DNA of 41,416 bases from Anaerolineae bacterium (GTDB lineage Bacteria > Chloroflexota > Anaerolineae > Anaerolineales > UBA11858): contig DUEG01000015.1 of assembly GCA_011176615.1 (NCBI GenBank), forward strand, positions 1-41,416. Reading direction: 5' to 3'. This document shows positions 31,408 through 33,703 of the stretch, piece by piece; the stretch's first letter is position 1, and each line of letters opens with the position of its first letter. The translations under genes were made by a program, and so were the position numbers. The notes under the pieces were generated by a model. That model made no database searches. It was not told where the DNA came from and was given only the letters and a program-made list of their open reading frames with translations.

Positions 31408-31436
31408 TTGTCAGAGAACTATGGCTGGGCTATAAT
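31408..31436 (+). promoter_or_regulatory. Strong sigma-70 promoter of efp
   Basis: -35 TTGTCA (31408-31413), 17-base spacer and perfect -10 TATAAT (31431-31436). A start near 31443 leaves a leader of about 79 bases before the efp ATG. It is the closest to consensus in the window. Confidence 0.8.
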
Positions 31437-31521: not shown

Positions 31522-32079
31522 ATGATTGACGTTAATGATCTAAGAAAAGGCATAACATTTGAGAAAGATAATGATATATATAAGGTTTTAGAGTATACAC
31601 ATCATAAACCGGGACGTGGTAAGGCAACAATCCGGGTCAAAGCAAGAAACCTGCGAAAAGGCACAACTCTAGACATGAGTTTTATCTCGGGTGACCGTGT
31701 TCAAGACATCCGGCTCGATCATCACAATGTTCAATATCTATACAAAGATGGCAATTCCTATATTTTCATGGACTTAGAAACCTATGAACAACCTTCAATT
31801 CCCAGCGATCTAATTGAAGATGTTGTGCCATATTTAAAAGAGGGGATGGAAGTTAAACTAACATTCTTCGGTAACGAACCACTTGATATTGATCTTCCTA
31901 CAACTATTGATCTAAAAGTTGTACGAGCGGAAGCATCTGCAAAAGGTGATACCGCTACAGGGGTAACTAAGAAAGTAGAGACTGAAACTGGATTAATCGT
32001 TGATGTTCCAGGTTTTGTAAAAGTTGATGACACTATTCGTGTTGATACTCGAAACGGGTCTTACGTTACTCGTGTTTAA
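31522..32079 (+). CDS. efp: Elongation factor P with Arg at the modification site
   Basis: 185 residues with the three beta-barrel domains of EF-P: KOW-like N-domain, OB middle domain (VEVKLTFFG-type strands; here MEVKLTFFGNEP) and the C-terminal signature IDVPGFVKVDDTIRVDTRNGSYVTRV region. EF-P rescues ribosomes stalled at proline runs. The loop that reaches the P-site tRNA reads HKPGRGKA: the residue that is Lys34 in E. coli (PGKGQ) is Arg32 here, as in the rhamnosylated P. aeruginosa protein. No modifying enzyme (EpmA/B, YmfI or EarP type) is seen nearby. AAAGGGA precedes ATG 31522. Confidence 0.95.
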   Translation: MIDVNDLRKGITFEKDNDIYKVLEYTHHKPGRGKATIRVKARNLRKGTTLDMSFISGDRVQDIRLDHHNVQYLYKDGNSYIFMDLETYEQPSIPSDLIEDVVPYLKEGMEVKLTFFGNEPLDIDLPTTIDLKVVRAEASAKGDTATGVTKKVETETGLIVDVPGFVKVDDTIRVDTRNGSYVTRV

Positions 32080-32147: not shown

Positions 32148-32156
32148 TGCTATAAT
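32148..32156 (+). promoter_or_regulatory. Extended -10 promoter giving a leaderless mRNA
   Basis: TGCTATAAT at 32148-32156 is a perfect extended -10. The ATG at 32164 lies 7 bases after it, which is where transcription would start. There is no ribosome binding site between them. Confidence 0.6.
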
Positions 32157-32163
32157 TCCATAC

Positions 32164-32517
32164 ATGCGTACACCATCCGGTAAAGACTGCAAATTTTTTT
32201 ATGGTGATTATTTCAGAGGCCGTAATAAAGAAGAATGCAGATTATTTCTTGGTACACAATATGAATATCAATGGAACGCTAATTTATGTCTCACTTGTCC
32301 AGTACCAGATATTTTGCTAGCAAATGCTTGTGAGCACATGATCCTCACAGGGAAAATAGTGAAACCGTTTTTCATATTGAAAGCAAGAGTCGAAATTTCA
32401 GCATTCTGTAACAAAACCAAGCAAGTTGTTGATAAACCATATATCGGCTGTGGTGAATGCCATTCACTTCCATCAATCTTCAATAAGGCGAACGATGACT
32501 CTTACAATACTGATTGA
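32164..32517 (+). CDS. Small Cys-rich protein, likely metal or Fe-S binding
   Basis: 117 residues with eight cysteines, at 9, 25, 42, 45, 56, 82, 96 and 99, plus His58 and His100. The CxxC at 42-45 and the GCGECH at 95-100 look like metal-site halves, so a zinc or iron-sulfur protein is likely. I do not recognise a named family; the spacing suggests a conserved fold and not random sequence. There is no signal peptide. Start at ATG 32164: no Shine-Dalgarno, but a perfect extended -10 ends 7 bases upstream, so the mRNA is probably leaderless. Its last 23 bases overlap the next gene, which suggests joint expression. Confidence 0.7.
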   Translation: MRTPSGKDCKFFYGDYFRGRNKEECRLFLGTQYEYQWNANLCLTCPVPDILLANACEHMILTGKIVKPFFILKARVEISAFCNKTKQVVDKPYIGCGECHSLPSIFNKANDDSYNTD

Positions 32518-33703
32518 TCTTGACGATACATTACTTGATAATGATATGGGGGTTTTCCTTCCTAATTACCTGAATACCCTAGGGAACTTCATGGCTTCTA
32601 CAATTGACCCCAATATCCTCTCCTCTGCATTAAGAAGAGGAACAAGCAAGATGTTTGAAAACAATTCGATTGACCGAACCCTTAAAAGTGTCTTCAACGA
32701 TTTTTTCTATAGTAACATCGACTTTAAGGAAGACCAAATTGGAAACTTAATTAATGATTTCTACAAAAACGAATTCCCAAAATTAAAAAACATAACAAAA
32801 CCAATTCCCGAGGCTAAAACATTTATCGATCGTGCTCTTGAGCGTAAATATCGGATTGGAATTGCTACCAACCCTTTATTCCCGCGCACAGCCATTATCC
32901 AGCGCCTTCAATGGGCAGGTTTGGACTCGAATAAATATGATTTCGCCCTAATTCCATCGTACGCAGATTTTCATTTTGCAAAACCAAACCCTGCATATTT
33001 TGCAGAGTTTATTTCAAGAATAGGCTGGCCAGAAGATCCTATCATCATGATAGGCAATGATCCCGAACATGATATCCAAGGCGCCAAAAACTTCGGAATA
33101 CCTGCTTTCCAAATAATCAAACACGACATAAGCACAAAATCCAACCTCACAAAAAGATATGGACAAGGGAGTATCAATTCTGTATTTGATTGGATTGATC
33201 GATTCAATGTTAAAGACTTGTCCCCAAATTTCGAAAAACGAACTTCAATCATTGCACAACTTAAAGGAATCCCCGCAGCAATTGACACGATTTATAATCA
33301 AACCAATACTTCTTCTTGGAATGCGCACCCCAATAAAAACGAACGGGGATTGCTTGAAATTTTATGCCATGTCAGAGACGTTGAAAAAGAAGTAAATATT
33401 CCACGCATCAAAAAAATCTTAAATGAGACTAACCCCTTCATCTCTGAGACCGACATAGATCAATGGCTTGAAACAAGGAAATATCAAGAACAAAACAAGC
33501 ATTCTGCACTCCCTGAATACTTAAATGCTCGCAAGGAAACCATCGCATTAATTGAGAATATGTCAGACTTAGATTGGAAACGACCTGCTAATCATGCTTT
33601 ACTTGGCACAACTTCATTGCACGAACTTATCCGAATGATAAATCAACATGACCGTCTTATTATTCGTCAGATTCATCAAGTAATCACGGAACCAACCAAC
33701 TAA
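32495..33703 (+). CDS. HAD-family hydrolase fused to a DinB-like domain
   Basis: 402 residues from ATG 32495, behind AAGG and overlapping the previous gene by 23 bases. The first half (about 1-225) is a HAD phosphatase-type domain: nucleophile motif DLDDT at 8-12, ATNP motif II, AKPNP Lys motif III, and GNDPEHDIQGA motif IV. The second half (about 250-400) resembles a DinB/DUF664 four-helix bundle, with His residues in LCHVRD and SLHELIRMINQHDR where this family places its metal-binding histidines. HAD hydrolases remove phosphate from small metabolites; what the DinB part does, and the substrate, are unknown. Confidence 0.82.
   Translation: MTLTILIDLDDTLLDNDMGVFLPNYLNTLGNFMASTIDPNILSSALRRGTSKMFENNSIDRTLKSVFNDFFYSNIDFKEDQIGNLINDFYKNEFPKLKNITKPIPEAKTFIDRALERKYRIGIATNPLFPRTAIIQRLQWAGLDSNKYDFALIPSYADFHFAKPNPAYFAEFISRIGWPEDPIIMIGNDPEHDIQGAKNFGIPAFQIIKHDISTKSNLTKRYGQGSINSVFDWIDRFNVKDLSPNFEKRTSIIAQLKGIPAAIDTIYNQTNTSSWNAHPNKNERGLLEILCHVRDVEKEVNIPRIKKILNETNPFISETDIDQWLETRKYQEQNKHSALPEYLNARKETIALIENMSDLDWKRPANHALLGTTSLHELIRMINQHDRLIIRQIHQVITEPTN

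Follow-up and report, generated by a model that had tools for sequence, protein, structure and literature searches.

The described forms of elongation factor P (EF-P) that lie closest to the protein considered here can be told apart by the residue at the tip of the β3–β4 loop and by its surroundings. Lys-tip forms, which include the EpmA/EpmB-dependent type of Escherichia coli, the 5-aminopentanolylated type of Bacillus subtilis, which goes with ymfI, and the EF-P of Staphylococcus aureus, carry a PGKG loop with a rigid-loop proline at position -2 of the tip. In Pseudomonas and Neisseria the tip is Arg32, which stands in an SGRN loop (N33, S34) and is rhamnosylated by EarP, an enzyme whose gene usually adjoins efp. 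The EF-Ps of Thermus and Deinococcus (1UEB, 4V6A) also have Arg32 at the tip, in a GRG context and in a phylum where we find no EarP; in T. thermophilus, contacts of this residue with C75 and C2064/C2065 have been described, along with an adaptation of translation to the lack of modification (PMC2821294). E. coli EfpL likewise has an Arg tip, which was found by mass spectrometry to be unmodified in an active protein (PMC11611912).

The residue at -2 is the subject of a published rule, according to which Arg-tip EF-Ps select against proline at this position. In a survey of 1166 EF-Ps, 14.75% had an Arg tip, and proline at -2 occurred with only 2.33% of the Arg-type sequences (PMC6544042). The rule was tested on the EF-Ps of E. 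coli and P. putida: S30P lowered the rhamnosylation of the P. putida protein in vitro to <1% of the rate and left it with 4% activity even after rhamnosylation in vivo, and the reverse change, P32S, abolished the activity of E. coli EF-P (PMC6544042).

The EF-P analysed here is encoded in a window of 41,416 nucleotides, i.e. the whole stretch of DNA that was examined (contig C57), from a 2.1-Mb metagenome-assembled genome of an Anaerolineae bacterium (order Anaerolineales, phylum Chloroflexota) with a completeness of 82.7% (Table 1). The gene is complete and encodes an ordinary EF-P of 185 amino acids, which exceeds the curated cut-off of TIGR00038, contains all three Pfam EF-P domains (PF08207, PF01132 and PF09285) and is the sole EFP_N match in its genome as assembled. 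Its closest named relatives, at no more than 73% identity, come from metagenome-assembled genomes of Anaerolineales and other Chloroflexi. EfpL/YeiP, which shares the Arg tip, was considered as an identity and rejected, the protein lying far under the model cut-offs (117.8 versus 216, and 105.5 versus 264). The protein is thus an arginine-tip EF-P with a housekeeping role. The promoter-like element upstream is weak, as sites of this type are no more numerous in the region than in shuffled sequence.

Table 1. Features of the efp locus (positions in the window).
Feature	Coordinates	Strand	Basis or remark
Promoter-like TTGTCA-17-TATAAT upstream of efp	31408..31436	+	11/12 consensus matches; weak
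efp, elongation factor P, single copy	31522..32079	+	TIGR00038 225.6 bits vs 185.8; three Pfam EF-P domains
β3–β4 loop region HHKPGRGKA	31600..31626	+	P30 (CCG, 31609-31611) at -2; tip R32 (CGT, 31615-31617); read from the DNA; aligned with the PGKG loops of EF-P structures
Unnamed Cys-rich protein of 117 aa with 8 conserved Cys	32164..32517	+	Follows efp in most Anaerolineales
HAD-like hydrolase with C-terminal DinB_2 domain	32497..33703	+	ATG overlaps end of Cys-rich gene

The initial annotation had placed Arg32 where the modified lysine normally stands, and this is correct, since the residue lines up with the PGKG lysine of three solved structures (6rk3, 6rji and 1yby). The top PDB similarity is to a Lys-tip EF-P (KPGKGSA), and the proline at -2 is shared with this kind, but the window EF-P has Arg at the tip and no EpmA or EpmB was found with it, so it does not belong to either Lys-tip type. 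With the EarP substrates it has Arg32 in common, but its loop reads PGRG with G33 and K34, and P30 stands where EarP-dependent proteins lack a proline. An Arg tip together with no known modifying enzyme, as in the Thermus-like unmodified kind, is what is found here, although the Deinococcota loops that were read are KIGRGGA and KMGRGGA compared to KPGRGKA in the window.

Arginine is the usual tip residue in Chloroflexota, so that this genome is no exception and the gap in knowledge is narrower than the initial annotation supposed. Loops were read in 183 Chloroflexota rows, a sample of about 90 family codes that is skewed towards the relatives of the query, with Arg in 149, Asn (PGNWRA type) in 13 and Lys in 11; the remaining 10 rows have odd loops, of which some are shortened (KMKR-TAL) or of QQR type. 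Arg was also present in all 26 further loci read from the window's own family and order, and in 3/3 loci from Deinococcota. Among the minor forms, Asn tips (PGNWRA or PGNWKA) were seen at eight loci from several Chloroflexota families, and eight EF-Ps have a shortened loop (KMKR-TAL, KM-KHTAL) or a QQR loop. One genome encodes three EF-Ps, one with an Arg tip and two with Asn.

The PGRG loop of the window EF-P contradicts the rule described above (PMC6544042). This is no isolated case: among 97 Arg-type EF-Ps from Anaerolineae proline is at -2 in 66, and T, S, L, M or A in the other 31, so that about two-thirds of the sampled Arg-type sequences of the class break the rule. The protein is of a known kind with a loop variant that is unusual, yet common in its own class. 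On a tree built with the loop columns left out, the state at -2 changes at least nine times, six of these changes being forced by well-supported branches, compared to a mean of 26 after shuffling; as the tree is of one short gene and has many open forks, the exact counts are soft. The state at -2 is thus clustered but repeatedly switched, with Arg retained throughout, and one GTDB genus contains both HKPGRGNA and NKTGRGNA loops. Such natural pairs differing at -2 offer material for asking whether arginine works unmodified and which loop geometry it needs.

Considering the known modifying enzymes, the initial annotation saw none and proposed a genome search for earP, epmA and epmB, and none of the three was found in the window's own genome (82.7% complete). 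Neither EarP (PF10093) nor EpmB has any match there, and the only long EpmA match is a frame of 520 amino acids that falls below the EpmA cut-off and was set aside as a lysyl-tRNA synthetase (LysS-like). The incompleteness of the assembly makes these negatives weak, and it is the phylum-wide negatives that carry the argument. EarP is missing from all 301 Chloroflexota genomes and all 81 Deinococcota genomes searched, while the same search recovered it in 2/80 spirochaete genomes, in both adjoining efp genes whose loops (KGGRN and KSGRA) have no proline at -2. No EpmB match exceeded the cut-off in the 301 Chloroflexota genomes; most matches are frames of at least 400 amino acids, which would be lysine 2,3-aminomutases, and only those adjoining a Lys-tip efp, as in two families with the loop NPGKGSA, look like genuine EpmB. 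EpmA over its cut-off adjoins a Lys-tip efp in three genomes, in two of which an EpmB-like gene is found there too; the third, of 1.5 Mb, also encodes a short-loop EF-P alongside its EpmA-linked one. In Chloroflexota the known enzymes, where found, accompany Lys tips and none was found accompanying an Arg tip, and since EpmA and EpmB adjoin their efp genes, such linkage is visible when an enzyme is present. YmfI is an SDR that a family search does not separate from others, and the modification known from it is made on lysine.

The analysis does not support the parallel with the P. aeruginosa system that the initial annotation implied, because EarP is absent from all the Chloroflexota genomes searched and because a proline at -2 prevents both modification by EarP and function in P. 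putida EF-P (PMC6544042). That a diverged EarP was missed by the search and rhamnosylates Arg32 would be in keeping with the tip residue, which is the same as in EarP substrates, but the model that works in spirochaetes found nothing in 301 genomes and the proline is incompatible with such substrates (PMC6544042), and we regard this as extremely improbable. In keeping with the initial annotation's remark on the modification state in this phylum, the literature searched yielded no paper on EF-P modification in Chloroflexota and no mass spectrum of an EF-P from this phylum.

We consider it most likely that the window EF-P works with unmodified Arg32. Several lines of evidence favour this: EarP is absent from Chloroflexota and also from Deinococcota, whose EF-Ps have Arg as well; the known enzymes adjoin Lys-tip efp genes when they are present in Chloroflexota; and the Arg of EfpL is unmodified (PMC11611912), while contacts of the Arg itself are described for Thermus (PMC2821294). 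The proline at -2, with six to nine switches between proline and other residues while Arg is kept, points the same way and away from rhamnosylation of the EarP type, since an enzyme that recognises the loop would be expected to fix this position. Arg32 may then reach the tRNA end and 23S rRNA through its own guanidinium group, in the manner reported for the Thermus protein; the absence of modification, the ribosome contacts and the activity of the window EF-P are all inferred from these comparisons. If the residue indeed carries no modification, the view that EF-P generally requires one would not hold for most of a large phylum.

Some observations speak against a bare arginine. The Arg-type EF-P of those proteobacteria that have been studied depends on its modification. 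E. coli EF-P carrying K34R has only about 20% activity when it is not rhamnosylated (PMC6544042), so there is at least one background in which an Arg without modification works poorly. In addition, a novel enzyme unlinked to efp would escape the present analysis. A different modification, for which an enzyme outside the EarP family, possibly encoded elsewhere in the genome, would be responsible, would account for the strict retention of Arg while the remaining loop varies, and would accord with most well-studied EF-Ps needing modification; an activated deoxysugar is conceivable too, as the genome encodes an RmlD-like protein, the best RmlD match, albeit below the family cut-off. We nevertheless think it somewhat unlikely, as across the phylum no candidate gene is linked to efp specifically where the EF-P has an Arg tip, the -2 position switches freely, and Deinococcota also have Arg without EarP. 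That Anaerolineae hold a new kind of arginine modification, by a non-EarP enzyme that tolerates proline at -2 and in which a linked cysteine-rich protein could take part, is an unlikely proposition.

This cysteine-rich protein, of about 110 amino acids, is encoded directly 3' of efp and on the same strand in most Anaerolineales loci, followed by the HAD-like hydrolase. It has seven invariant and one nearly invariant cysteine among 39 members, with 16 invariant residues in all, no relative found in Pfam, NCBIfam or the PDB, and an AlphaFold (AF2) model of a small α/β protein that is fairly confident (pLDDT 85.6, pTM 0.70) and has no significant fold match in the PDB. It occurs in 34/38 sampled Anaerolineae genomes and elsewhere among the 301 only as one marginal match with a stop, and is a new 8-cysteine family that within the sampled phylum is restricted to Anaerolineae. 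Its conservation, its restriction to the class and its order-level synteny with efp make the protein, with or without the hydrolase, a candidate for an Anaerolineae-specific partner or modifier of EF-P, but a weak one, because other families of the class have the gene at a distance from efp, in some cases with a HAD gene still beside it, and because it is present in genomes of one family (f6) whose EF-P has an Asn tip. Four Arg-tip relatives, moreover, show no such gene beside efp, and an extended -10-like element, TGCTATAAT (32148-32164), ends 7 bases before its ATG, a placement that suggests a leaderless mRNA of its own. We judge a role as EF-P partner or modifier very unlikely, and a dedicated modification operon of efp, the Cys-rich gene and the HAD gene was down-weighted on the same grounds of lost linkage and Asn-tip EF-Ps. 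The hydrolase probably starts at the ATG at 32497, within the 3' end of the Cys-rich gene, so the TTG start at 32426 that was assigned mechanically is probably wrong.
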